A DNA stretch of 64,000 nucleotides from Capsulimonas corticalis (GTDB lineage Bacteria; Armatimonadota; Armatimonadia; Armatimonadales; Capsulimonadaceae): NCBI RefSeq assembly GCF_003574315.2, contig NZ_AP025739.1:5332001-5396000 (forward strand), written 5' to 3'. This document shows positions 38,530-56,802 of this stretch, piece after piece. Position 1 is the stretch's first letter. Each line of letters begins with the position of its first letter. Under the pieces are notes generated by a model. That model was given only the letters and a program-made list of their open reading frames with translations. It was not told the origin of the DNA and ran no database searches. The position numbers were made by a program, and so were the translations under genes.

Positions 38530-41220
38530 TTAGAGGATCGTAATACGGTCGAGGTCAGGCGCGTTCGCGCCGGGGTTGTGGAATTTGATGGTGTTGGCGC
38601 CGGAGTTAAGCGTCACTGTCATCGTTGCCGAACCACTGGAGCCCGAGCACGTCAGTGTCTGATCCGCGCCGCCGTTGACGCTTACTTTGAAATCGCGGCC
38701 GCCCGTGAAGTAGTAGACGGTCAGCGTGTGGCTGCCGGCGGTCGAGGTGATGCTGTTGACGATCGCGTATCCGTCGGTTCCGCCGCCGATATAACGGACG
38801 ACTTTACCTCCCGAAGCGGAGGCGTTTGTGTCCACAAATGCGCCGTTACCGATCGTATTGGCGGTTGCCTCGCCTTCATAGCTGGTCGGAGCGGGCGGCG
38901 TGGAGGTGACGGTAATGCGATCGAGATCAGGCGCGTTCGCGCCGGGATTGTGGAATTTGATCGTGTTGGCGCCGGCATTGAGCGCAACGGACATTGTGGC
39001 CGATCCACCGGAGATGGGGCATGTCAATGTCTGATCCGCGCCGCCATTGACGCTTACCTTAAAGTCACGACCGCCCGTGAAGTAATAAACGGTCATCGTC
39101 TGAGCGCCTGCGGCGCTTTCGGTCACATTATTGATGGTGTCGTAGCCATCGCCGCCACCGCCGATATAACGGACGACCTGACCACCCGAAGCGGAGGAGT
39201 TTGTATCCACAAATGCGCCGTTGCCGATCGTATTGGCCGACGCTTCGGCTTCGTAACTGCCAGGCGTGCTCGAACCACCGGGCAGCCAGCGATACATCAG
39301 CGTCTTAATAGCGTAGTTGTCCTCGCAAAGGATGACATACTCGCCGTTCGAACGCAGCAGGACATTCGTCGGGTACTCCATATCGACATTGCCGACCGCG
39401 CTCGGGCCGCCGACATTCGCGCCGGGAACCAGCGAACCGACGTAAGCGCCGCTGTTGACATCGTAGACATCGATCTGGTGGACATCGTAGAGCGTCACGA
39501 ACACGTAGTTTCCTGCAACATTGATGCCTTTCGGCGTGTCGTTGATGGGCGTGGTGTTGCCCGTCAGCACGATGCCGTCGCCGGAATAATGGGCGGTGCG
39601 CGTTCCGGTCCAATTGTCGTAGCGCTGCAGAACCTTGCCGGCGCGCCCCCAGTCCCCATTGGAGTTCGGATTGCTGTTGGTGTAGCCGCTGATGTACATG
39701 CGATCGTTCGCGGCATCGTAAACGACGCGATCCATCTCCGTCCACCCAGAGCCGTTTGCAGGAACGCCGTAATGGACGACTCCGCCGGTGTTCCATGTCG
39801 GAGCGCCGTTGGCGTCAAGCGTCGCGTTGATCGGGTACTTGTTGACGCCGCTGCTGATGTCCCACCAATTGCCCTGGCTGTCGACGCAGCCTTCGTTTCC
39901 GGTGGGAGTATTGCCCGCAGGAATGGCGACCTCACCGTCGGTCGCGCTATTGAAGCGATAGACGCCGTTCGGGACGCCGTTCTGCGGCCCCATAAACAAG
40001 AAGCGCGCGCCATGGATGCGGCGCACCCAACATCCGCACGTCCAGTTCGAGCGGCGGGAGTCGGAGGGATACTTGCTCTCGTTCAAAGTGTAGCCGATAT
40101 CGCTCCACTCCGAGCCGGGCGTCGTATTGCCGTAATTGACCTTGATATGCTGAGCGGGTGAGAAGATATCGGTCTCGGAACCAGGATCGAAGTCGCAGGC
40201 GACCGTCCAGTGGAGGCCGTTAAGCACCCAGTTGCGCGATCCGCCGGAGGTGTAGCTCTCTAGCACGGAACTTCCTGTCGCGCCACTATCCTGGGTTCCT
40301 TGGCGCTGAGCGACATAGATATTGCCGTTTCCATCAATGCCCACGGCTTGGGGATGTACGAAGCGCAATGCTCCCACCGTCCCAATTGTCGATCCGGCGC
40401 CGGAGAGCGCGCCTCCCACGACGCCGAGTGTCGATGTGCGGCTGGGCGACGTGTCAATATTCGTGTAGATTTTGATATTTTGATCCGAGCCGTCGTCTGC
40501 CGCGTAGAGCTTATTGCCGCCGCCCACGCAGATGCCCATCGGCTTACCCACGTCGGTGATCTGCTGGCCCAGGTAGTTGCCGTTCTTGTCGTAATGCTTG
40601 ATAGCGGAACCGGTAACGACCCAGAGCGAGCCGCTGCTTCCCATGCAAATTCTCCCCGGATTGCTCAATGCCCAGGATCGAAGCTGCGTCATGCTGTTCG
40701 TATCGTAAACGTGAACGACATTGTTGACCCGATCGGCGACATAGAGTTCGGTTCCGTTGCAGGCGAGGCCGACGACGCCATTTGTGGCGACTTCCCGCAC
40801 GCTGCCGTCAACAGCGCCGCCGCTGAAGGGCGAGTGCGCTCCGCTCATCGTATACCGACCGACGCCATTATCGCCATCGGTCGCGGTAAAGAAATACGTC
40901 CCGTTGGTGCAGATGCCCCCCGTGCCGCCCTGGTAGCTGGATGTGTCGTCGAAACGGCTGACGAATGCGCCGTTCTTGTAGACGCCGATCTCTGTCGCCC
41001 CCTCCTCCCAGGCGCAATCGGCGTAGCAGGTCCCGTCCGACGCCACATAGAGCGAGAACATATCCTGCTGTATATGTGTCGCAAGGGTCCCCGTGCTGTT
41101 GCCGACCCAGCTTGTCGTGTACGATCCAGGCAGCGTCGTTGCGGAACTCAAGGGTTGTATCGCAATCATTGCGAAAGATGTTACAGCGGCATAGCGAACC
41201 GCGTTTCGAAACAATGTCAT
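38530..41220 (-). CDS. Secreted NHL/beta-propeller protein with two C-terminal carbohydrate-binding modules
   Basis: 896 residues. The start is placed at ATG 41220, with GGAGGAC 6 bases upstream, giving signal peptide MTLFRNAVRYAAVTSFAM...SSAT. Residues ~30-650 are propeller-like repeats (VDGSVREVATNGVVGLACNG split at residue ~145, GRICMGSSGSLWVV, GNIYVAQRQG). Residues ~656-896 hold two nearly identical ~117-residue modules (SYEAEASANTIGNGAFVDTN, YYFTGGRDFKVSVNGG, NTIKFHNPGANAPDLDRI) of the CBM6/CBM35 type. It probably binds plant polysaccharide at the cell surface. A tiny prepilin-like ORF ends one base before its start codon. Confidence 0.78.
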   Translation of the reverse strand: MTLFRNAVRYAAVTSFAMIAIQPLSSATTLPGSYTTSWVGNSTGTLATHIQQDMFSLYVASDGTCYADCAWEEGATEIGVYKNGAFVSRFDDTSSYQGGTGGICTNGTYFFTATDGDNGVGRYTMSGAHSPFSGGAVDGSVREVATNGVVGLACNGTELYVADRVNNVVHVYDTNSMTQLRSWALSNPGRICMGSSGSLWVVTGSAIKHYDKNGNYLGQQITDVGKPMGICVGGGNKLYAADDGSDQNIKIYTNIDTSPSRTSTLGVVGGALSGAGSTIGTVGALRFVHPQAVGIDGNGNIYVAQRQGTQDSGATGSSVLESYTSGGSRNWVLNGLHWTVACDFDPGSETDIFSPAQHIKVNYGNTTPGSEWSDIGYTLNESKYPSDSRRSNWTCGCWVRRIHGARFLFMGPQNGVPNGVYRFNSATDGEVAIPAGNTPTGNEGCVDSQGNWWDISSGVNKYPINATLDANGAPTWNTGGVVHYGVPANGSGWTEMDRVVYDAANDRMYISGYTNSNPNSNGDWGRAGKVLQRYDNWTGTRTAHYSGDGIVLTGNTTPINDTPKGINVAGNYVFVTLYDVHQIDVYDVNSGAYVGSLVPGANVGGPSAVGNVDMEYPTNVLLRSNGEYVILCEDNYAIKTLMYRWLPGGSSTPGSYEAEASANTIGNGAFVDTNSSASGGQVVRYIGGGGDGYDTINNVTESAAGAQTMTVYYFTGGRDFKVSVNGGADQTLTCPISGGSATMSVALNAGANTIKFHNPGANAPDLDRITVTSTPPAPTSYEGEATANTIGNGAFVDTNASASGGKVVRYIGGGTDGYAIVNSITSTAGSHTLTVYYFTGGRDFKVSVNGGADQTLTCSGSSGSATMTVTLNSGANTIKFHNPGANAPDLDRITIL
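38533..38883 (-). repeat. CBM-module repeat, C-terminal unit
   Basis: Encodes about 117 residues (SYEGEATANTIG... LDRITIL) nearly identical in protein and DNA to 38908-39255. It is an in-frame tandem duplication within the propeller/CBM gene. Confidence 0.85.
38908..39255 (-). repeat. CBM-module repeat, first unit
   Basis: Encodes about 116 residues (SYEAEASANTIG... LDRITV), separated from the second copy by the short linker TSTPPAPT. Confidence 0.85.
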
Positions 41221-41221
41221 A

Positions 41222-41443
41222 CTAGTCCTCCACATCGAAGAAATAACGGCGGTGTTGGTTATACTTTCTCCTGTCTTGTATCCGTACAGTGGTCAACTTA
41301 TCTGCTTGAGGTTGCTGGCGCAGCTTGTCTGACTGGCCTTCTCGCGAACCTTTGCAAAGTAGGGAAAACATGACGACAACGATAGTAATAATAGCAATTA
41401 CAACCATATGCTCAATAAGAACAAATGCTGATTGCTTACGCAA
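41222..41443 (-). CDS. Very short prepilin-like peptide upstream of the propeller/CBM gene
   Basis: 73 residues if it starts at TTG 41443 (RKQSAFVLIEHMVVIAII), with GGAGAG about 12 bases upstream; the frame is open to 41533. A^FVLIE keeps the processing site and Glu+5 of prepilins, and LLCKGSREGQSDKLRQQPQ parallels [19 protein letters not shown] of the full-length proteins, but the DUF1559 body is missing. Its stop TAG is separated by a single base from the next gene's ATG, and its last codons carry that gene's Shine-Dalgarno. It is either a decayed prepilin or a coupled leader peptide. Confidence 0.45.
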   Translation of the reverse strand: MRKQSAFVLIEHMVVIAIITIVVVMFSLLCKGSREGQSDKLRQQPQADKLTTVRIQDRRKYNQHRRYFFDVED

Positions 41444-41518
41444 CGTGATGTATGCTCTCCAACAAGATGTCAAAACCGACCGGAAGCTTGATATACTACG
41501 TAATACATCGAACGTAAT

Positions 41519-41547
41519 ATGGTAACACAACATCTTCTATTTGTCAA
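41519..41547 (-). promoter_or_regulatory. Promoter of the peptide/propeller-CBM unit
   Basis: Minus-strand TTGACA (41542-41547) and TACCAT (41519-41524), 17-base spacer. Just downstream are two ACGTAATA repeats (around 41498-41506 and 41512-41519) that could bind a regulator. Confidence 0.55.
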
Positions 41548-41839: not shown

Positions 41840-43378
41840 TTACAAGTGGCCGTCGGCGGGGTGGTCCTGCCGGCTGTCCGGGAGCCCCTGGACATCGCGT
41901 AACTGAAGGCCCGTGACCGACTTCAGGGAGAAGATCGGGATCGAGGCGGCGTGCTCGGCGTCGAGGCCGGTGAAGCGTGCGCCGGATACGTCGTCGAGTA
42001 CGAGCGCAGGGCGCTGGTCCGGGGTCTGGGTGTGTGTCTGAAGGCCGTCCACGGTGATTCCCTGGACGTGCCGCAGGTAGACGCCGTAGGCGGGCAGGAC
42101 GCCGAAGCGGTTGGGTTCGGGATATCCCGCGACGTCTTCCGGCGGAGTGCGCGTCGCCTGCGCCGCCGTGCCGCCGCCTTTGTACCAGATGCGGATGTCG
42201 CTGAGAGACAGATCCTGCACCGGCGCGCCGGGGACACCCGCGACGATCACCGAGGATGTGGCGGCGGCGTTGTAGACCGTGATGTGGCTAATGCTGACTC
42301 GCCGCACTGTTCCCATCGGCGTCCCAGCGGGGGCGCGCTGGCGTCCGCCCAGGCGTACGAAGATCGGGGCGTTGACGATATCGCGCATGGTCAGGTTGCT
42401 GATCGATACGTCTTCCAGCGAGCCGCCGTCTACTTCCTCCAGCGCCAGGCCGTGGCAGTAGGAAAAGACGCAGTTTGAGACGGTAATGTTCTTGAACCCG
42501 CCATTGGATTCTGTGCCGAATTTGATGCGGCCAGTTCCGCCGTCATGAGCTCGACTAAACGTGCCGTCGAGCACAGAGCCCTCCTCATAGCCGCTGACCA
42601 CGCAATTCGTGATCGTCACGTTCTCGGTCCCCCGATTGAAGCCGAGACCGTAGGAGCTTTTCAGACAGATGCCGTCGTCGTGGGGAGAGTTGACCGTACA
42701 GTCCGAGACGTGGACGACGCGGCAGGCGTCGATGTCCATGCCATCGCGGTTGGTGTCGATCCGCAGGCCGCTGATCGTCAGGTTGTCTACCCCGGTGGCG
42801 AGGATGCCGAACCAGCCGCCGTGCGCGATGGTGAAGTCGCGTAGGGTGACGTTGCGGCAGAGCTTGAGGGCGATGGCCTTGTTGCCGTCGCCCGACTGCT
42901 TGGTTTCGTCCTTCACCAATCCGCGTCCCCAGATGCGCCCTGTCCCGACAATGGCGACATCATGGAGGTTTTCCCCCCAGATCAGGCTGTTGCGCCAGTG
43001 CGTGTGGCCGAAGTCCTGGTACTGTCCGGCGGTGGGGTTATCCTCCGGCGCATCGTAAGCGACTCCATTTCCCGGCGTCGCCGCCAGCAGCGTCGCCCCC
43101 GCCGCGATCTCCAGGGTGACATTGCTCTGGAGGTGGACCGTGGTGGTCGGGTATGTCCCCGCCGTCAAACGAACCGTGCCGCCGCCCGCCGCCGACGCCG
43201 CCGCGATGGCCTTGTCAATCGCCTCCGTGTCGAGCGTCTGGCCGTCGCCTTTTGCCCCGAACGCGTGGACGTCAAAGACGCCGTTGACGGGCGCCGCCGG
43301 TGTGTCCGCCCGGACGATTGGCGCGGCCACGCAGGACAGAACACCCGCCAGAAGAAGGCGTTTCCCTAAATGCATCAT
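41840..43378 (-). CDS. GH28-type polygalacturonase, secreted
   Basis: 512 residues. Start at ATG 43378 or 43375 with GAGG upstream; the signal peptide ends near PIVRAD. A pectate-lyase-3-like start (FDVHAFGAKGDGQTLDTEAI) leads into a right-handed beta-helix. GH28 active-site motifs are recognisable: NRDGMDID (variant of NTDGID, ~211), PHDDGICLKSS (the DD pair, ~234) and RIKFGTES (~285). The usual GHG motif is replaced around GYEEGSVLDG. It should cut polygalacturonan or rhamnogalacturonan, feeding the galacturonate enzymes encoded upstream in the same operon. Confidence 0.85.
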   Translation of the reverse strand: MMHLGKRLLLAGVLSCVAAPIVRADTPAAPVNGVFDVHAFGAKGDGQTLDTEAIDKAIAAASAAGGGTVRLTAGTYPTTTVHLQSNVTLEIAAGATLLAATPGNGVAYDAPEDNPTAGQYQDFGHTHWRNSLIWGENLHDVAIVGTGRIWGRGLVKDETKQSGDGNKAIALKLCRNVTLRDFTIAHGGWFGILATGVDNLTISGLRIDTNRDGMDIDACRVVHVSDCTVNSPHDDGICLKSSYGLGFNRGTENVTITNCVVSGYEEGSVLDGTFSRAHDGGTGRIKFGTESNGGFKNITVSNCVFSYCHGLALEEVDGGSLEDVSISNLTMRDIVNAPIFVRLGGRQRAPAGTPMGTVRRVSISHITVYNAAATSSVIVAGVPGAPVQDLSLSDIRIWYKGGGTAAQATRTPPEDVAGYPEPNRFGVLPAYGVYLRHVQGITVDGLQTHTQTPDQRPALVLDDVSGARFTGLDAEHAASIPIFSLKSVTGLQLRDVQGLPDSRQDHPADGHL

Positions 43379-43424
43379 CAATATCCTCTTTCTCGAAAAA
43401 TTAGACTTATGTTCTCTGTTTCGT

Positions 43425-44747
43425 TCACTCAGAAGTCCCGCCGCGCGCCCATTCGGGCGGGGTTTTGAGATGAAAGAGCATCTCGCCGGCGTTGGGAACG
43501 CACAGAACGCCCTCCGCCTCCCGGTTCTGATAGTCTTCGATCCGAATCGAGGCGTGATCGCGGTATCCCAGATTAATCGCCCGGCAGACGTCTTCCGGAA
43601 TTTGCGTCGCCAGCGTCACCCGCACACGCGGGCGCTCCACGCCGTTCTCGTAGGAGCCAATCCCGCGCACATGAGTTGAGTGCGCCAAGATGCCCCACGG
43701 CTCGTCTTTAAATTTGTCCCATTGTTTCAGGAAGTAGTCGCGCGTGTGGTATCCGATCCGCCGGATCAAGTCTCCGTGGGTGACGGAGATTTCATGGATG
43801 TGGGGCGCATAGATGATCAGCTCCCCGCCGTCCGCCACCACCGGCTCCAGCTTGTACATGCACTTGCCGGCTACCCAGATTTCGTCGTACATCGGCGGCG
43901 CACACGATAGAACCGTGTGGAAGGGACGATCTTTGTACACGATATTCAGTCGGGCGCTATGGTCGGCGGCCACCGACCAGGCGGCCTCGGGCGCCCCCGC
44001 ATAGAGACCGACGAGATCATGCCCGTGGATCACCATGCAGAATGCGAACCGAGGCGTCGGGATCAGTGACGCGGCGTAGTCGATCACTCGCCGCACCGGC
44101 GTCCACTTGTGGCCGATGATGCCCGGGTTGGTGATGACCGCCCCCAGCCAGTGGAAGAAATTCAGAACCTCGGGGCCGCTGACGCCGGGGAACAGATACT
44201 TGTTGCCGCCCGAGAAGCCGGCGACCTCGTGCGGAAAGACTGGGCCGACAATGATCAGCTGATCGTAATCGAAGACAGCCCGGTTGACTGTCACCGGCAC
44301 ATCCATCTCAAACAGGCCATCCGAGAGACGGCGTATCTCGGACGCCGGGATGACGCCAAGCTCCGCCAGAGCGGCGGGATCGTCCCAGGCGTGATTCAAG
44401 AAGCCAACTCGCCCGTAGCGCCCTGCCCTCTCTTCCACCGTAATCTCCAGACGATGGCGGATCGCTTCCTCGCTCATCGGCGGGTGCGTGCCGAGCGCGA
44501 TCATCACATCCAGACGCGCCGCCGCCTCGCCAATTTGATCAAAAATCGTGCGAAACATCAGCCCAACCGGCGCGGTGCGCGTCGCGTCGGGGACGATCAA
44601 CAGCACTCTTTTGCCGACCAAGTTCAGCGCCGTCAGAGCTTGGGCGACGATTCTGCGAACTTCATCATCGGCGAGGAGTTCTTTCCCCCGCCCGTCCGTT
44701 TCGTTTCGCTGATCGTCATCGTCGGTCAGCGTGGCGCTGTTTCCCAT
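43425..44747 (-). CDS. LarA-like (DUF2088) nickel-pincer racemase/epimerase family protein
   Basis: 440 residues from ATG 44747 (MGNSATLTDD) with GAGGGAAAGC upstream. Family motifs: PDATRTAPVGLMF, ALGTHPPMSEEAI, and HEVAGFSGGNKYLFPGVSG, which contains the Lys that carries the nickel-pincer cofactor in lactate racemase. Starts 10 bases after the SDR gene within the hexuronate operon, so the substrate is more likely a sugar acid than lactate. No larB/larC/larE cofactor genes are present in the window. Confidence 0.8.
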   Translation of the reverse strand: MGNSATLTDDDDQRNETDGRGKELLADDEVRRIVAQALTALNLVGKRVLLIVPDATRTAPVGLMFRTIFDQIGEAAARLDVMIALGTHPPMSEEAIRHRLEITVEERAGRYGRVGFLNHAWDDPAALAELGVIPASEIRRLSDGLFEMDVPVTVNRAVFDYDQLIIVGPVFPHEVAGFSGGNKYLFPGVSGPEVLNFFHWLGAVITNPGIIGHKWTPVRRVIDYAASLIPTPRFAFCMVIHGHDLVGLYAGAPEAAWSVAADHSARLNIVYKDRPFHTVLSCAPPMYDEIWVAGKCMYKLEPVVADGGELIIYAPHIHEISVTHGDLIRRIGYHTRDYFLKQWDKFKDEPWGILAHSTHVRGIGSYENGVERPRVRVTLATQIPEDVCRAINLGYRDHASIRIEDYQNREAEGVLCVPNAGEMLFHLKTPPEWARGGTSE

Positions 44748-44757
44748 GCTTTCCCTC

Positions 44758-45576
44758 TCAAATCGTGGTCGCGGAGAAGCCGCCGTCGACGACGATGTTT
44801 TGGCCGGTGACGAACGAGGAAGCGCGCGGCGCGGCGAGCCAGATTGCCGCCCCCGCGAGTTCCTGCGACTCGCCAAAACGTCCCATCGGCGTGTGAGCGA
44901 TGATCTGCCCGCCGCGTTCGGTGTAGCTCCCCTCCGGGTTCATCAGCAGAGCCCGATTCTGTTCGGCGGGGAAGAAGCCGGGGCTGATGGCGTTAACCCG
45001 GACACCCCGGCCCGCCCACTCGCGCGCCAGAAACTGCGTCAGGTTCAGCACCGCCGCCTTGGCCGCCGAATAGGCGACCACTCGTGATAGCGGCGTCATT
45101 CCAGACAGCGACGCCACATTGATGATGCTTCCCTGTCCCGACGCCAGCATTGCCTCGCCGAAGATCTGGCATGGCAGCAGCACCCCGCCGACCAAATTCA
45201 GGTCGAAGACGCCGCGCCACGCTTCCAGCGGCAGGACGCAGAAGTCCGCGCCGGGCGGCAGTGTCGCGTCGGGACGGTTGCCGCCCGCCGCGTTCACCAG
45301 CACGCTGACCGCTCCCCACTGCTCCGCGACGGCGTCACGCGCCGCCGCCAGCGATTCCGGATCCATCGCGTCCACGGACTGGAACAGCGCCGCGCCGCCC
45401 GCCTGCGAAATGCGGCGCACGGCCTCGTCGCCGCGCTCCCGACTGCGTCCCAGAACAGCCACTCGCGCGCCCGCACCCGCCAGGGCGTCGGCCATCGCCC
45501 CGCCCAGCACACCCGTGCCGCCGATCACGACGGCGACCTCACCCGTCAAATCGAACAATCCCGTTTGGGTCGTCAT
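44758..45576 (-). CDS. SDR-family fructuronate reductase / D-mannonate oxidoreductase
   Basis: 272 residues from ATG 45576; the ATGA overlaps the uxaC stop by 4 bases. NAD(P)-binding motif VIGGTGVLGGAMADAL, NAG motif variant VNAAGGNRPD, catalytic Ser in VASLSGM and YSAAKAA (YxxxK), C-terminal GQNIVVDGGFSATTI. The context with tagaturonate epimerase and uronate isomerase points to reduction of D-fructuronate to D-mannonate (a UxuB function in the SDR superfamily). A gluconate 5-dehydrogenase-like activity is the alternative. Confidence 0.82.
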   Translation of the reverse strand: MTTQTGLFDLTGEVAVVIGGTGVLGGAMADALAGAGARVAVLGRSRERGDEAVRRISQAGGAALFQSVDAMDPESLAAARDAVAEQWGAVSVLVNAAGGNRPDATLPPGADFCVLPLEAWRGVFDLNLVGGVLLPCQIFGEAMLASGQGSIINVASLSGMTPLSRVVAYSAAKAAVLNLTQFLAREWAGRGVRVNAISPGFFPAEQNRALLMNPEGSYTERGGQIIAHTPMGRFGESQELAGAAIWLAAPRASSFVTGQNIVVDGGFSATTI

Positions 45577-46997
45577 GACTTCCCGCTCGCCTCCGGGATG
45601 TCCAGCGCTAGATATCGTTTGGCGTTCCCAAAGCAGATGTTTTCGATCATCGGCCCGACCAATTCCTCGTCGCCCGGGATCTCGCCGCTTTCTATTTCCC
45701 GCCCGATCACATTGCACAGCACCCGACGGAAATACTCATGACGGGGGTAGGACATAAACGAACGGGAATCGGTCAGCATCCCAACGAAGCGCGAGAGCAG
45801 GCCCGTGTTGGACAGGGTGTTGAGCTGCCATTCGATCCCCTCTTTGGTGTCCAAGAACCACCAGCCGGACCCGAACTGGATCTTCCCGGGCGTGGAGCCG
45901 TCTTGAAAGTTGCCGGCCATTGTCGCCAGCACATAGTTGTCGTTCGGATTGTTGTTGTAAAGAATTACCTTCGGCAACGCGTCTTCTTGCTGGAGCCGAT
46001 CCAGATAGGCGCCGAGCGACGCGGCCTGCGGCCAATCGCCGATGGAATCGAAGCCCGTATCCGGGCCCAGCTTCTGTAAGCCGCGCGTGTTGACGCTGCG
46101 CAGAGCTCCCAGGTGGAGCTGCTTGGTCCAGCCGCGTTTGGCGTCCAGCCGTCCGAAGAAGAGCATCAGATAGGAGGCGAATTTGGCGTGGTCGTCAGCC
46201 CCAGCGGCCTGCCCGGCGCGCGCACGGTCAAAAATGGCCGCCGCTTCGGCTTCGCTCGGGAAGTCGGCATAGCAACGAGCGAGGCCGTGGTCGGAAAGGC
46301 GACTCCCGATCTCATGGAACGCGCGATGGCGTTTGTCCAGCGCATCCAAAAGATCCGGCAGACGGCCGATTTGCGTGTCGCTGATGGCCTCCAGCTTTCC
46401 CAGCCATGCGTTGAACGCCTCGGGCTGGTCCACCGCCAGCGCCTTGTCCGGGCGGAAGGCCGGGTAGACACGCGTCGGCAGATCCGAGTCGGCGATTGAC
46501 CGGTGGGCCGCCAGGTCGCCGGTTGGATCATCCGTGGTGCAGAGGGCGGCGACTTGGAATTTCCGGAGGATTCCCCAGGTCGTCAGATCGGAGGTCTGGA
46601 GCTGTGCGTTAGCGCGCTCCCAGATCGCAGGCGCGGTCTTCTCATTCAGCAGTTCATCGATCCCGAAATATCGCTTGAGTTCGAGATGGGTCCAGTGATA
46701 GATCGGATTGCGAAGGGTGTGCGGTACGGTCTTTGCCCAGGCCAGGAATTTCTCGTATGGATCGGCGTCCCCGGTGCAGTAGCGCTCCTCGACGCCGTTG
46801 GCGCGCATGGCGCGCCACTTATAATGATCTCCCGCCAGCCAGATCTCGGCAAGATCGTTAAAGCGTCGATTTCCGGCGATGTCGTCTGGGGGCAGGTGGT
46901 TATGGTAATCGAGAATCGGTTGGTCTGCCGCGTATTGATGATACAAAAGGCGGGCCGTTTGGGTTTGCAGGAGGAAGTCCTCGTGAATAAACGACAT
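45573..46997 (-). CDS. uxaC: Glucuronate/galacturonate isomerase
   Basis: 474 residues, the usual length. Converts D-galacturonate to D-tagaturonate (or glucuronate to fructuronate). An amidohydrolase-fold enzyme with metal-binding DYHNHLPPDDI near the N-terminus, then NPIYHWTHLELKRYFGI, CTTDDPTGD and LYNNNPNDNY. Starts 3 bases after the uxaE stop and overlaps the SDR gene by 4 bases, showing translational coupling. Confidence 0.95.
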   Translation of the reverse strand: MSFIHEDFLLQTQTARLLYHQYAADQPILDYHNHLPPDDIAGNRRFNDLAEIWLAGDHYKWRAMRANGVEERYCTGDADPYEKFLAWAKTVPHTLRNPIYHWTHLELKRYFGIDELLNEKTAPAIWERANAQLQTSDLTTWGILRKFQVAALCTTDDPTGDLAAHRSIADSDLPTRVYPAFRPDKALAVDQPEAFNAWLGKLEAISDTQIGRLPDLLDALDKRHRAFHEIGSRLSDHGLARCYADFPSEAEAAAIFDRARAGQAAGADDHAKFASYLMLFFGRLDAKRGWTKQLHLGALRSVNTRGLQKLGPDTGFDSIGDWPQAASLGAYLDRLQQEDALPKVILYNNNPNDNYVLATMAGNFQDGSTPGKIQFGSGWWFLDTKEGIEWQLNTLSNTGLLSRFVGMLTDSRSFMSYPRHEYFRRVLCNVIGREIESGEIPGDEELVGPMIENICFGNAKRYLALDIPEASGKS

Positions 46998-47000
46998 CGT

Positions 47001-48266
47001 TTAATGCCCTCCTGCGTTGCTGAGAAACAGCGGCTGTAGATGACGCGCGTAGAGGTTTTCGGTGACGTTACGGGCGATTGCCGCCTCGCACGCGTCCAGC
47101 ATCCCCAGATATCGGTCGCCCATCTGCCCCGCAATCTTGTAGCCGACATGAAGCAGTTGACGCATATCGGGATTGAATTGAGGATTTGTGGGGTCGTGGC
47201 GCACGGCGGCTGTGAATTGCTCCGAAGTCCAGCCATTGACCGTCTCGGCGCTGGGCAGGCGAGCAGGATCGATGTCGATCACCGCCGCATAGGGCGCGCA
47301 GAGCGCGTCCCGCTTGGCGAGCGCCGCCGCGTAGATCTCCTGCGCCAGCTCCAGTCCCTCGCCGCCGGATTCCGCCAGTCCGATCAGCTCTTCCAGCCAG
47401 GTCGTCCCGGCGGTCTTGATGTGCAGGCCAGCCCCGGTGTCGCGCAGCGCCCGCTGGATCGGGCCATAGAGCGAGAACTTATCACTGCCGGAATGGACGC
47501 TGAGTTTCAGCGTTGTCGGCAGTCCATATTGCTTGACCGCGAAGGCGATCACCGCCAGATCATCGCGAAACTCCGTCTCGAACTTCGCCAGATCGCCGAC
47601 ATAATCAACGCCTTTGTTGAACCGCCCGGTGAATTTCGGGGCGATGGTCTGCGCGGGAATGCCTTCCTCGGCGATAAGCGCCAGAATCACCAGCAGCTCG
47701 GGCGGAGTCTGCGGGCTGTCGGTCTCGTCCATGGAAATCTCCGTGATGAACCGTCCCTCGCCCTTCGCGGCGGCGATGCCCCGATAGATCCGGCCCGCCT
47801 CCTGAACCGCGCGCTGATATTTCCCGGCGATCCGCTCGATATCCGCCCGCGTGGTTTCCAGCGGCTCGGCAATGCCGGGAATCGCCAGCCGCCCTATCAG
47901 CTCATTGTGACGGGCAGAAAAGGCCCCTAACAACTCTTCGTCTGGAGCAAGCCCGATTGCGTCGGCCACATCCAGCGTGTAGAAATCGCTTCCGGCGAGG
48001 AAACCGTCCACCGTCTCCAGCCGAACATGGTCGGCGTCTACATGATACGGCCCGTCCCAGCCCAACGCCTTGACCGCGGCGTCCGCCGCCGCGCGCACGC
48101 TTGACGGCTCCGATCCAATCGTCGCATGTTCTCGGTAAGACTTATTCCAGACGGGCGTGATCTCGACGCCCTGTTCCGCCGCCATCTGGCAGGCGCGCAG
48201 CTGCGCCTTCGCCTGGTGGGCAAAACGATCCCCCACCCCAAACGAGTATTTCCCAATCTTCAGCAT
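47001..48266 (-). CDS. uxaE: Tagaturonate/fructuronate epimerase
   Basis: 421 residues. Begins MLKIGKYSFGVGDRFAHQAKAQL, the family start, then WNKSYREHATIG, VDADHVRLETV, TEISMDETDSPQTP, KLSVHSGSDKFSLYGPI and GTTWLEELIGLA. It interconverts D-tagaturonate and D-fructuronate, so galacturonate-derived carbon can enter through fructuronate and mannonate. This route replaces UxaB/UxaA, which are absent here. Between the transporter and uxaC. Confidence 0.9.
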   Translation of the reverse strand: MLKIGKYSFGVGDRFAHQAKAQLRACQMAAEQGVEITPVWNKSYREHATIGSEPSSVRAAADAAVKALGWDGPYHVDADHVRLETVDGFLAGSDFYTLDVADAIGLAPDEELLGAFSARHNELIGRLAIPGIAEPLETTRADIERIAGKYQRAVQEAGRIYRGIAAAKGEGRFITEISMDETDSPQTPPELLVILALIAEEGIPAQTIAPKFTGRFNKGVDYVGDLAKFETEFRDDLAVIAFAVKQYGLPTTLKLSVHSGSDKFSLYGPIQRALRDTGAGLHIKTAGTTWLEELIGLAESGGEGLELAQEIYAAALAKRDALCAPYAAVIDIDPARLPSAETVNGWTSEQFTAAVRHDPTNPQFNPDMRQLLHVGYKIAGQMGDRYLGMLDACEAAIARNVTENLYARHLQPLFLSNAGGH

Positions 48267-48338
48267 TCGTAATTCCGTTCCTTTTCCACATTCCGTTTCT
48301 ACATTCCGTCAATTTCACAATAATCCATCGACAGATAT

Positions 48339-49688
48339 TTACACGCTCGTCCCGTCATCAGTGACCACGCGGCGTTCATTCTCGCGAGCGTCAACAAGTT
48401 TGGGGACGAGAATCTGGATCGCCAGCAGAGAAAGCAGATACATAGTGGAGGCCCAGGCGAAGATCAGGGCGTAGCTGCCGGTCTTGGTCACCACATACCC
48501 CACCACCTGGGCGTTGCCCATGCTCGCGATCCCCGAGACGAAGCCGCCCAGCCCGACCACGGAGCTGACGGCGCGCTTGGGCATCGTGTCGGAGACGAAC
48601 GTGTACAGGTTGGCGGACCAGCCCTGGTGGGCGGCGGCGGCCAGGCCCACGAGCGCCACCGTGACCCAGGAGTTTTCGACGGAGGCGGCAAAAAAGACCG
48701 GCGTGACGCAGACGGCGCAGACAAGGAGCGAGGTCTTGCGGGCGGCGTTGAGGCTCCAGCCACGGCCGATCAGCTTTGCCGCGAGCCAGCCTCCGCCGAT
48801 GCTGCCGACGATCGCCATTGTGTACACGATTCCCACGCGCACACCCGTCTGCTGCAATGTCAGATGGTAGCGTTTCTGGAGAAAATCCGGCAGCCAGAAG
48901 AGATAGAACCACCAGACCGGCCCCGCCAGCAGGCCGGCGATCATGTACGCCCAGGCGGCGCGAAAGCGCAGCAGGCTCAGCCATGGCGCCGCCGCTTCCG
49001 TCGTCACCACCCGGCCTTCCTCAATATAAGCGCGCTCGGCGACCGAGAGCCGAGGATGGGTCTCAGGGGAGTCGTACAGCAGCGCCCACGCGACGATCCA
49101 CCCCAACCCCAGCGCGCCCGTGATGTAGAACGCCGCCGGCCACCCGAACTTCGCGGCCAGCAGAGGAACGGTCAGCGGACAGACGATCGCGCCGATGTTG
49201 CTGGCGCTATTGAAGACGCCCGTCGCCAGCGCCCGCTCCTTCAGGGGAAACCATTCCGTGACGGTTTTGATCGCCGCCGGAAAGTTGCCGCCCTCCGCGA
49301 GCCCCAATCCCAAACGGGCGATGCTGAAGCCGAGCACCGTACGAACGAGTCCATGCGCGACAGCGGCCACGCTCCACAGAAAGGCGGCCCAGGACAGTCC
49401 GCGACGCACGCCAAAACGGTCCATGAGGCGCCCCCCAAAAAGATAACCGCAGGCGTAGGCGAGCTGGAAGGCGCTGACGATATTGGCGTAGCCGGTGTCG
49501 GTCCACCCCAGTTCGTGCGAGAGCTGGGGCTTGAGGACGCCGATGATCTGCCGATCCATATAGTTGATCATGGTCGCGAAAAACAGCAGGCCGCAGATCA
49601 CCCACCGGAAGTTGCCGACGCGCGCGCCCGGCGCGCCGGATTCCACGGCCGACGAGGCCGACGGATGCGTATCTTTGATAGGCGTCAT
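48339..49688 (-). CDS. MFS hexuronate transporter (ExuT-like)
   Basis: 449 residues from ATG 49688 with AAAGGAAGC upstream; the longer frame is not supported. Twelve predicted membrane spans. The first helix region is ICGLLFFATMINYMDRQ, a hallmark of the anion:cation symporter branch. MFS motif A is GGRLMDRFGVRRG, and FSIARLGLGLAEGGNFPAAI is the matching helix-4/5 signature. Its place in a galacturonate operon supports proton-coupled hexuronate uptake. A gap of 72 bases follows to uxaE. Confidence 0.88.
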   Translation of the reverse strand: MTPIKDTHPSASSAVESGAPGARVGNFRWVICGLLFFATMINYMDRQIIGVLKPQLSHELGWTDTGYANIVSAFQLAYACGYLFGGRLMDRFGVRRGLSWAAFLWSVAAVAHGLVRTVLGFSIARLGLGLAEGGNFPAAIKTVTEWFPLKERALATGVFNSASNIGAIVCPLTVPLLAAKFGWPAAFYITGALGLGWIVAWALLYDSPETHPRLSVAERAYIEEGRVVTTEAAAPWLSLLRFRAAWAYMIAGLLAGPVWWFYLFWLPDFLQKRYHLTLQQTGVRVGIVYTMAIVGSIGGGWLAAKLIGRGWSLNAARKTSLLVCAVCVTPVFFAASVENSWVTVALVGLAAAAHQGWSANLYTFVSDTMPKRAVSSVVGLGGFVSGIASMGNAQVVGYVVTKTGSYALIFAWASTMYLLSLLAIQILVPKLVDARENERRVVTDDGTSV

Positions 49689-49728
49689 AAATGCTTCCTT
49701 TTGCCCGAAGACTAAAGTACGGTGCGCC

Positions 49729-51246
49729 TCAGTTCGCTCGAATGACCAGCACGAGGCCGGGATCGGACTTATCGCCGGGCGTCGCGGCGTTGCGGCCGAT
49801 GCGGTCAATCACGGCGCCGGGAATCGTCACACGGCTGCCCGAGACGCGAACCTGGCGAGTAATCTCCTGTGGAATGTCGCCGGCCAGGTCCTGTGCGAGG
49901 ATTCGTCGCGCGGTCACCGGTTTGTCGAACACCAGGGTCAGAGAATGATAGCGTCCGAAGATTCCGATGGGGCCGGAGTACTGCCCGACTTGCAGTGTCA
50001 CATCGGCCACTTCCCCAGTGATCCACTGGCGGTCCGTAGCGCTCGGACAAATCGTCCGCCCCAGTGTCGCCACAGCCACCGCCCCATTGGGATTGCGCGA
50101 TGCGACGACGAACGGCTTGACGCCGCCGGAAGCCAGCGCCACCTCCGGCAAGGGAAGCCCGCGCGTAACGATTGCCGGAGCAGTTTCCGTCTGATCCTGA
50201 CCGGCGGCGATGCGCCAGGATTCGTCCTTTTGAAAGATCCAGTTGTCCGTCATCTGCTCGGGAGAGATCGCCGCAGCGTTGGCGCCGACGGCGAACGCCG
50301 GCGCGAGCCGATGCCACCGGACGGCGCGGACGACCTCGTCCGTGCAATGTTTTAGGTCGCGAGTGAGCGGCGGAAAGACAAAATCCTGACGCCCGCTCGG
50401 CAGAGCGCCGGCGAAGCTGTGTCGCATCACCCCGTAGCAACATCCGAGGGCCGCGCCCATATACACTTCATCCTCGCAATTGATCAGCCCCTTGGCCGGC
50501 GGCTCTGCTTTGAAATCCAGCTCCTTCACAACTCGACTAAGCGTTTGCGGAACCGATAACAGCGCGTCCACATCGTAGGTCCGATAGGTGTCTCCCCACG
50601 CAATTGCCTGCGGAAGCATCGCCGTTTCAATGGTCAGTGTGGGCGCGGTCCGCCGGCCCAGGTCCGTCAAATGACGCCGCCACGCTTCGTCTCGGCTCTG
50701 ATTACCATAGTCGACCTTCCAATAGGCCACCCCACTGGCTTGCATCCATTGCAACCGCTGTGTCCAAAAGTCATCCGTCTTGGCGTCCGCGCGCATCCAT
50801 AAGCCCAGCCCACGCCACCCGCTTTTCTTCACGGCGTCCGAAAGCTTTTGGAAGTTTTCCGGCTGAGTCCCGGCGGAGTAAGAAGGAAATCTGGCGGGCA
50901 TCACCTCGATGTTCTCATTCGGCAAATCCCACCCTTCGTCCATCAAAAAGTAAAGATCCTGCCGTACCGGAGCGTACTGCCCCAGCCAGTTCTGATTGGC
51001 TCCCTGTCCGAACATCTGGCTTTCCTGGACGGCGTCCTTCTGCTGACCTTTCCCATAGCTCGAGTAGTACCCCTGGATGTTCCATGTGCAGAAATAATCG
51101 GGAGACGTATTGGCCGTTGTGGGAACGAGGCTCTGTTGCTTCTGCGCCGCCGAGCAGGCAGGCAAGAAACAGAATACCGACGCAACGGCGAGAGCCAGAG
51201 CCGCCCCCATATTATTGTGATTGCTGAGATCGGAAGTCAGACGCAA
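49729..51246 (-). CDS. Clan-D-like (GH27/GH36) secreted glycosidase
   Basis: 505 residues, TTG start with AGGAATAAAAG upstream. The leader ends in VFCFLPACSAAQ; the Cys may be a lipidation site, so it could be a surface lipoprotein. The barrel contains YFLMDEGWDLP, LGLWMRADAKTDDFW, and ASGVAYWKVDYGNQ, where the Asp matches the nucleophile position of GH27/GH36. The usual acid/base Asp could be in KGLINCEDEV or elsewhere; I cannot place it. An alpha-galactosidase-like activity is a family-level guess. Part of the pectin operon. Confidence 0.65.
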   Translation of the reverse strand: MRLTSDLSNHNNMGAALALAVASVFCFLPACSAAQKQQSLVPTTANTSPDYFCTWNIQGYYSSYGKGQQKDAVQESQMFGQGANQNWLGQYAPVRQDLYFLMDEGWDLPNENIEVMPARFPSYSAGTQPENFQKLSDAVKKSGWRGLGLWMRADAKTDDFWTQRLQWMQASGVAYWKVDYGNQSRDEAWRRHLTDLGRRTAPTLTIETAMLPQAIAWGDTYRTYDVDALLSVPQTLSRVVKELDFKAEPPAKGLINCEDEVYMGAALGCCYGVMRHSFAGALPSGRQDFVFPPLTRDLKHCTDEVVRAVRWHRLAPAFAVGANAAAISPEQMTDNWIFQKDESWRIAAGQDQTETAPAIVTRGLPLPEVALASGGVKPFVVASRNPNGAVAVATLGRTICPSATDRQWITGEVADVTLQVGQYSGPIGIFGRYHSLTLVFDKPVTARRILAQDLAGDIPQEITRQVRVSGSRVTIPGAVIDRIGRNAATPGDKSDPGLVLVIRAN

Positions 51247-54732: not shown

Positions 54733-56802
54733 CTAACGCGCTTCCCCTCCGGCGAGAACGCGCGGAGTATAATCCACCGTGGCCGTTTTTGGTCCGCGCG
54801 GTGGGAACGGCAGGAACGTCAGCACGGCGCTGACGCTTTGTTTTGGCGCCAGCGCGGGGAAATTGTGGTAGAACACGCCAGCCTGCCCGGAAGCGCTGGT
54901 CGCGCCGTTGCCGCTCCCACTTTCCAGTGTTAGCCTCACTCCCGCGCTCAGACTGTCCAGCGCCAGCGAAACGGGACTGGGGAGAGTCGCCGCGCCGACA
55001 TTGGTGAGCGTGACGGTCTGGGTCATGCGCCCGGTGGCTTTGTCCACTTTTATCTTGCCGCGCTTGATTTTGACGTCCGCCGTGACATCTATTCCCAGGG
55101 CCGGGGATTTCACGCCGTAAACGAGAATGCTGCCCGCCGTCGCCACATAGACGCGCCCGTTGGTGATAGTCGGCGGGTTGAACTTCATAAAATTTCGGTA
55201 AACGACGCCGTCAATGGTCGGGGCGGTGTCGCCGCTGCTGTAAAGCTCCTCCAGCGTCGCGGCGTCATAAGCGTGCAGACGCATCCGTCCCGGGTCCGCA
55301 TGGTCCCTCATGTTTAGGCCGGTCGGATAGTAGGACTCGGTCACCCAGACGACGCCATTGTCGGCGCCGTCGGCCGAAACGCTGGGGGTGGCTCCCGGGA
55401 ATCCGAAGCGTAATGACGTGTTGGAAACGGTCTGCGATTCTTCCAGACGCCCATTCGCAATTGGGACGCGCTTGAGATACTCGCCGGTTCGCAGATAGTA
55501 GACCGCCCCATGGAAGTATGCGGGGACGCTGTACAGGCCGTACCATTGCTTGCTGGTGTTCCCATCGCCGTCGGCGGGCACTTCGATCTCCTGCACGACT
55601 TTGTTCGCGGCGGCGTCGAATCCGCCGAGCGCATCACGGTCCACGAGGGAGAGCATCCCCACCTTGCCGCCGGAGAACATCAGATGACGATGCTTGGCGC
55701 TCCCGACATCGTCGGGCAGCAGCAGCATTCCGCTCGTGCCCAAATCGGCGTCTCCCCGGTCCAGGCCCACATGGTTGAACGGGCAAAAGTAGTCTTTGAC
55801 GTTGAGCGTTTCGCCGTTCAATTTCAGGAAGCACTCGCCCCAGTTCCCCGTCGGAGCGTCGAAGACGCCGTTGCCGGTGCTGACATAGACGTTCCCGGCG
55901 GTGTCGATGGACGGTGAACCGCCGCTCTGCCAAATGCCCGCGCCGAACTGGGCCACGCTCGGCGAATCGTTGAGCGCCGCACGGACAGCGCCGGTCCTGG
56001 CGTCGCAGGCGATCACCCAGCCATGATACGGCCCCTTATCCTGATGGGAGGCCCACGCGATATAGACCTTGCCGGCGTTCAAAACCAGGCCGCAGCGCTG
56101 ATTCTCCAGGTCCGGACGAAATGTGATCGGACCGGTGTCCGGCCGCCCTTCCGTCCCTGTGGATGTCGCCGTGATCTCCACGGGAAAGCCGGGCGCGAAC
56201 TTATTCGCGCCGGTCGCGCAGTCGAGCGCATACAGACGCTGGTGATAATCGGACGGCGTTAAGCCGCCGTTTTCCATCGTCAAGACCACGACATAAAGCG
56301 TCCCGGTCGCCGGGTCGATTACGGGCGTGCCGGTGACGCCAATCTCCGGCTGCAAGTCGGAGTTGCCAAAGAAAGGCTGGCGCGTCTGCCCATCCACAAA
56401 ATCCGTTCGCTTCCAAAGCGTCTCCCCGGAGTCGGCGTCGAAAGCGTAGACGCTGTCATGCTCGGTGGCGACAAAAAGGACATTACGCCGGCGCCCATCC
56501 GGCAGCGGCGTCCCGGCCAGATACAAAGGCTGTGCGTAGATTTGCGCGCCGCTGAGGTTATGGGGGATATTTGGTCCGACGCCTGCGTCCACGGGAATGC
56601 GAAACAGCAGGCCAAACCGGCCGGCGCGCAGAAGGGCCGGAGTCAGCAATTTCTCCTGTAGATTCTGACCGGTGTTGGCGCAATCGTTGTGCGACTTCAA
56701 GACATCGGCGGTCTGTGCCGACGCCAGGCGATTGGTCAAAGCCGGGAACGCCGCGAGAAGGACGCCCAGAAGCGGTAACATTTTCTTCAATCGGTGAAAC
56801 AT
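54733..56802 (-). CDS. Secreted PQQ-like beta-propeller protein with C-terminal immunoglobulin-like domain
   Basis: 689 residues, signal peptide LLGVLLAAFPAL...ASAQ. Propeller repeats of the PQQ/quinoprotein type: VLFVATEHDSVYAFDADSGETLWKR (two halves, ~residue 105), LYVVVLTMENGG, GNVYVSTGNGVF and GRVYVATAGSILVYG. The last ~110 residues (MTQTVTLTNVGAATLPSPV) look like a CARDB/Ig-like domain. No quinone-binding residues can be assigned, so dehydrogenase activity is unproven. Its start codon is 6 bases after a tiny prepilin-like ORF. First large gene of the pectin operon. Confidence 0.65.
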   Translation of the reverse strand: MFHRLKKMLPLLGVLLAAFPALTNRLASAQTADVLKSHNDCANTGQNLQEKLLTPALLRAGRFGLLFRIPVDAGVGPNIPHNLSGAQIYAQPLYLAGTPLPDGRRRNVLFVATEHDSVYAFDADSGETLWKRTDFVDGQTRQPFFGNSDLQPEIGVTGTPVIDPATGTLYVVVLTMENGGLTPSDYHQRLYALDCATGANKFAPGFPVEITATSTGTEGRPDTGPITFRPDLENQRCGLVLNAGKVYIAWASHQDKGPYHGWVIACDARTGAVRAALNDSPSVAQFGAGIWQSGGSPSIDTAGNVYVSTGNGVFDAPTGNWGECFLKLNGETLNVKDYFCPFNHVGLDRGDADLGTSGMLLLPDDVGSAKHRHLMFSGGKVGMLSLVDRDALGGFDAAANKVVQEIEVPADGDGNTSKQWYGLYSVPAYFHGAVYYLRTGEYLKRVPIANGRLEESQTVSNTSLRFGFPGATPSVSADGADNGVVWVTESYYPTGLNMRDHADPGRMRLHAYDAATLEELYSSGDTAPTIDGVVYRNFMKFNPPTITNGRVYVATAGSILVYGVKSPALGIDVTADVKIKRGKIKVDKATGRMTQTVTLTNVGAATLPSPVSLALDSLSAGVRLTLESGSGNGATSASGQAGVFYHNFPALAPKQSVSAVLTFLPFPPRGPKTATVDYTPRVLAGGEAR

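Follow-up and report, generated by a model that had tools for sequence, protein, structure and literature searches.

A mini-ORF ahead of a secreted propeller gene in Capsulimonas corticalis is very probably the remnant of a decayed DUF1559 prepilin gene

Translationally coupled leader peptides, of the attenuation or uORF type, are encoded by short ORFs that end beside the start codon of the gene they regulate. In operons whose first cistron decays in place, the promoter and the downstream gene are kept and the upstream cistron is degraded and truncated. The DUF1559 prepilins (PF07596 with PF07963, N_methyl) are known from Planctomycetota and Armatimonadota, and an expansion of DUF1559 has been reported in Rhodopirellula baltica, with 74 genes (PMC2754498). 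The genome of Capsulimonas corticalis (7.65 Mb, one contig) holds at least 152 matches to PF07596. Our survey for prepilins and their remnants covered 2.06 Mb (27%) of it, with intact genes found by their FTLIE motif, and returned 71 intact FTLIE-type genes, along with a small number of variant prepilins and two remnants. Both remnants lie within the window, by which we mean the whole 64,000-nucleotide stretch of DNA analyzed here. Some relic candidates picked up by a looser motif were rejected: they are prepilins of FTLVE or TRTELL type, read in another frame. The genes next downstream of prepilin genes often encode regulator-like (LacI or GntR type) or secreted proteins.

The first of the two remnants is a mini-ORF of 73 amino acids at 41443-41222 on the minus strand, as are all window features given below, with a TTG start at 41443 and a TAG stop at 41222. 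As an earlier note on this DNA had described, a single base (41221) separates the stop from the ATG at 41220 of an 896-aa gene (38530-41220), and the Shine-Dalgarno sequence of that gene, GGAGGA at 41231-41226 (-9.3 kcal/mol, 5 nt from the ATG), lies inside the mini-ORF. The gene is intact and encodes a signal-peptide protein resembling a beta-propeller; the CBM label previously attached to it finds no support from Pfam at cut-off, and an NHL match is also sub-threshold. The A^FVLIE motif and hydrophobic stretch reported for the mini-ORF are present, the motif at 41428-41411, and together they conform to the class III signal, G/A^F-x-x-x-E followed by a hydrophobic helix, with a Pfam N_methyl match (E 0.0084) that falls below that family's cut-off. 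The stop-to-stop frame around the mini-ORF extends to an ATG at 41533, within the predicted promoter. Also in the window, positions 41840-49808 carry genes for a GH28 protein, a Lar_N protein, an SDR-like protein, uronate isomerase (UxaC), tagaturonate epimerase (UxaE) and an MFS transporter, likely a locus for pectin/galacturonate (uronate) use.

A prepilin origin of the mini-ORF, proposed before, is borne out at the level of both DNA and protein. A DNA profile built from 55 DUF1559 prepilin 5' ends of the same genome matches window positions 41448-41299 in nhmmer with an E-value of 1.1e-21; the alignment places two 1-nt deletions after the helix, ahead of the post-helix segment. A frameshift-aware protein alignment to prepilins scores 59 bits, compared to at most 12 in shuffled sequences. 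The helix, FVLIEHMVVIAIITIVVVM at 41369-41425, is recognized in frame 0 by the profile and the frameshift-aware alignments. The earlier note had also seen an echo of the prepilin post-helix segment in the mini-ORF; the segment exists, but it is out of frame there and intact in frame +1, where FPYFAKVREKASQTSCASNLKQIS followed by TGA occupies 41293-41367. Frame +1 alone, with no frameshift allowed, scores 43.5 bits, and the echo in the mini-ORF frame is thus a frameshifted shadow of the intact segment. What the mini-ORF preserves, in degraded form, is the beginning of a DUF1559 prepilin gene.

The lesions affect the start, the frame, the helix and the C-terminus. The frame lesion at 41360-41369 is a net loss of 2 nt, aligned by nhmmer as two 1-nt deletions. 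In the homologous frame a TGA at 41295-41293 follows LKQIS, and nothing corresponds to the last ~200 residues of other family members. A functional prepilin gene would be open from its start codon to the end of the C-terminal domain, over about 240-300 aa, and those of the 55 sampled paralogues that are complete measure 229-299 aa; no such frame exists here. A weak alignment (LTTVR.IQD with LA.MQY.QD) hints at a third, frame-restoring 1-nt loss near 41300, although the profile match stops short of it. Upstream, the putative Shine-Dalgarno sequence of the former prepilin gene, TGGAGA at 41456-41461 (-6.4 kcal/mol), stands 12 nt from the TTG at 41443 and 6 nt from an ATC at 41447-41449. This ATC lies in the helix frame and at normal spacing, and the simplest view is that it was once the ATG start codon.

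The prepilin helix is near-invariant in the family, and 8 of the 19 helix residues of the remnant differ from it. Over these 19 codons the amino-acid-changing difference is 0.253 per site between remnant and paralogues and 0.033 among the paralogues; the remnant lies above both the median (0.026) and the maximum (0.160) of the per-paralogue values. Silent differences are alike in the two comparisons (0.77 and 0.73), and the changes in the remnant fall at all codon positions. The helix, though altered, is still hydrophobic, and the prepilin constraint on it has been relaxed or lost. The combination of a strong profile match with indels, a truncation and a probable loss of the start codon is that of a decayed prepilin, i.e., a pseudogene.

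The surroundings of the remnant recur elsewhere in the genome. A scan placed a sigma-70-like promoter, TTGACA-N17-TACCAT (10 of 12 matches), at 41519-41547, upstream of the remnant, and the layout TTGACA-N17-TAxxxT is also seen at the second remnant and at L034 and L035, two loci with paralogous propeller genes. Between promoter and remnant, at 41490-41509, is a 20-bp near-palindromic, operator-like site that reads GATATACTACGTAATACATC on the plus strand. The one further exact copy in the genome, at 3076580, has a LacI-family gene on one side and an intact 253-aa prepilin gene on the other, and a paralogous propeller gene starts 103 nt after the prepilin. At 267020 the site, with 3 mismatches, lies ahead of another propeller paralogue and no prepilin stands between them. 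A reversed-pattern control for the 20-bp site gave 0 matches, and the LacI-family protein encoded just upstream of the site at L035 matches Peripla_BP_3 (E 2.9e-10). A near-palindromic, putative operator beside promoters, adjoining a LacI-family gene in one case, is thus common to three propeller loci.

The 13-bp core of this site, ATACTACGTAATA, occurs six times, at five loci, and at four of these it lies ahead of signal-peptide genes. The loci with site or core include L035 948-5533, L034 1500-5327, 41490-41509 in the window and G000:C1:1466371 and 1466413. The core copy at 1210285 adjoins an ORF that looks reverse-transcriptase-like in translation and is probably due to chance. Four secreted-protein genes, three for propellers and one CARDB-like, have the near-palindromic site ahead of them. 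The sharing of the site, with one copy adjoining a LacI-family gene, suggests a small regulon of secreted proteins.

Between a like site and a like gene, then, the prepilin is intact at 3076580, decayed in the window and absent at 267020, and nothing speaks more strongly for decay in place than this series. We regard it as very probable that a DUF1559 (type IV-pilin-like) gene once stood first in an operon under the control of a repressor, presumably of the LacI family, and that the mini-ORF is what decay has left of its 5' end. The ancestral order would have been promoter, operator, prepilin and secreted propeller gene. The prepilin gene would have been damaged in three ways, by loss of the ATG, by a frameshift behind the helix and by a deletion of the ~200 C-terminal residues, and the promoter, operator and downstream gene would have been retained because the secreted propeller was still needed. 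The former prepilin promoter probably drives the propeller gene by transcription across the remnant, whose open frame would be no more than a fortuitously readable stretch of leader RNA, and translation of the propeller probably begins at the Shine-Dalgarno sequence belonging to that gene. A search for orthologues of the propeller gene in 40 relatives, 19 genomes of the order and GTDB contigs gave paralogue-level matches only.

The earlier note had suggested that the mini-ORF, as a translationally coupled frame, may be a retained leader peptide. On this reading it would be translated from the TTG, and its termination beside the ATG would increase or control the synthesis of the propeller protein. 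We consider this unlikely. The stop one base from the ATG and the downstream Shine-Dalgarno sequence inside the ORF suit such a role, and a predicted local fold pairs part of the first Shine-Dalgarno bases, the overall pairing being mixed. The helix frame stays open for ~50 codons beyond the lesion, which counts against a reading as plain debris; an end within 10 nt of the ATG was seen in ~1% of dinucleotide shuffles of the 148 nt after the helix, a post hoc figure that does not outweigh the lesions of the remnant. As an initiation signal, the TTG is 12 nt from a Shine-Dalgarno sequence of moderate strength, and the codon in register with that sequence is the ATC. Frame-disrupting changes lie in the mini-ORF while the downstream gene is intact, a finding that the earlier note had itself named as speaking against its reading, and the helix shows relaxed constraint. 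The propeller gene has a strong Shine-Dalgarno sequence of its own, so coupling is not needed; the same holds for the paralogous propeller genes at L034 and L035 (-8.7 and -9.3 kcal/mol), which have no such leader ORF. The mini-ORF is therefore most likely debris within a leader, probably without function, rather than a working leader peptide.

Very improbable, in our judgment, is a functional small membrane protein, i.e., a new, short pilin-like product under selection. It would account for the retained A-FVLIE and hydrophobic helix, but not for the many replacements in a helix that is otherwise near-invariant, for the lost start or for the half of the ORF that is out-of-frame prepilin sequence, and the 2.06 Mb surveyed contain no relative of such form. 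That a sequencing or assembly error has broken an otherwise intact prepilin gene is hardly credible: the indels do adjoin TTTT and CCC runs, where long-read errors are common, but the joined frame would still have the TGA after LKQIS, no ATG and a heavily changed helix, and there is no space before 41220 for ~200 more residues.

The second prepilin-derived mini-ORF, of 64 aa at 57003-56809 (nhmmer E 9.5e-13), lies 15 kb from the first and just downstream of a gene for a GntR-LacI type regulator. It has an ATG and a Shine-Dalgarno sequence (-9.5 kcal/mol, 10 nt spacing), and its helix has lost G-F-x-x-x-E, the prepilin cleavage motif. It ends 6 nt before the ATG of a 689-aa signal-peptide gene for a PQQ/BamB-type propeller (54733-56802), a stop position reached by chance in ~6% of shuffles. 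This gene has no Shine-Dalgarno sequence (-1.7 kcal/mol), an absence that is only suggestive because starts of this kind are common in the genome: in 13% of long ORFs, Shine-Dalgarno pairing is weaker than -3 kcal/mol at each of the first four starts. Genome G003 contains an ortholog of the PQQ-propeller gene, at 73% identity, and no prepilin stands upstream of it; the evidence is weak because the contig is not syntenic. By these sequence features, 57003-56809 appears to be a better candidate for a coupled leader peptide than 41443-41222. Both remnants end no more than 6 nt before a signal-peptide gene, a likeness in geometry that counts against reading the first as plain debris. A broader idea is that prepilins standing first in repressor-controlled secretion operons decay to short leader ORFs for a membrane helix. 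These ORFs would be kept because their translation supplies the downstream secreted-protein gene with ribosomes, perhaps at the membrane; we hold this idea to be improbable.

Our literature searches found no study of an arrangement of a decayed prepilin with a secreted gene. The case, a prepilin pseudogene relic within the leader of an operon, is ordinary in kind and informative through its three-stage series. It illustrates how an operon may lose one gene of a very large pilin-like family and yet keep its operator and its secreted product, and it brings to light a small, putative set of shared operators for secreted propeller proteins. Should the second remnant prove to be a working coupled leader, a dying structural gene would have been reused as a translation leader.

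Compared to the known systems, the remnant at 41443-41222 is like the DUF1559 prepilins over the first ~45 mature residues, in DNA and protein, and its upstream region resembles their layout of promoter, Shine-Dalgarno sequence and ATG; it differs from them in having no start codon, a frame broken after the helix, no C-terminal domain and a helix whose constraint is lost. With translationally coupled leader peptides it shares an end beside a start codon, but it has no good start of its own and the downstream gene has an independent Shine-Dalgarno sequence. As in the in-place decay of an operon's first cistron, promoter and downstream gene are kept and the upstream cistron is degraded and truncated, except that here the frame happens to be open to one base before the next gene.
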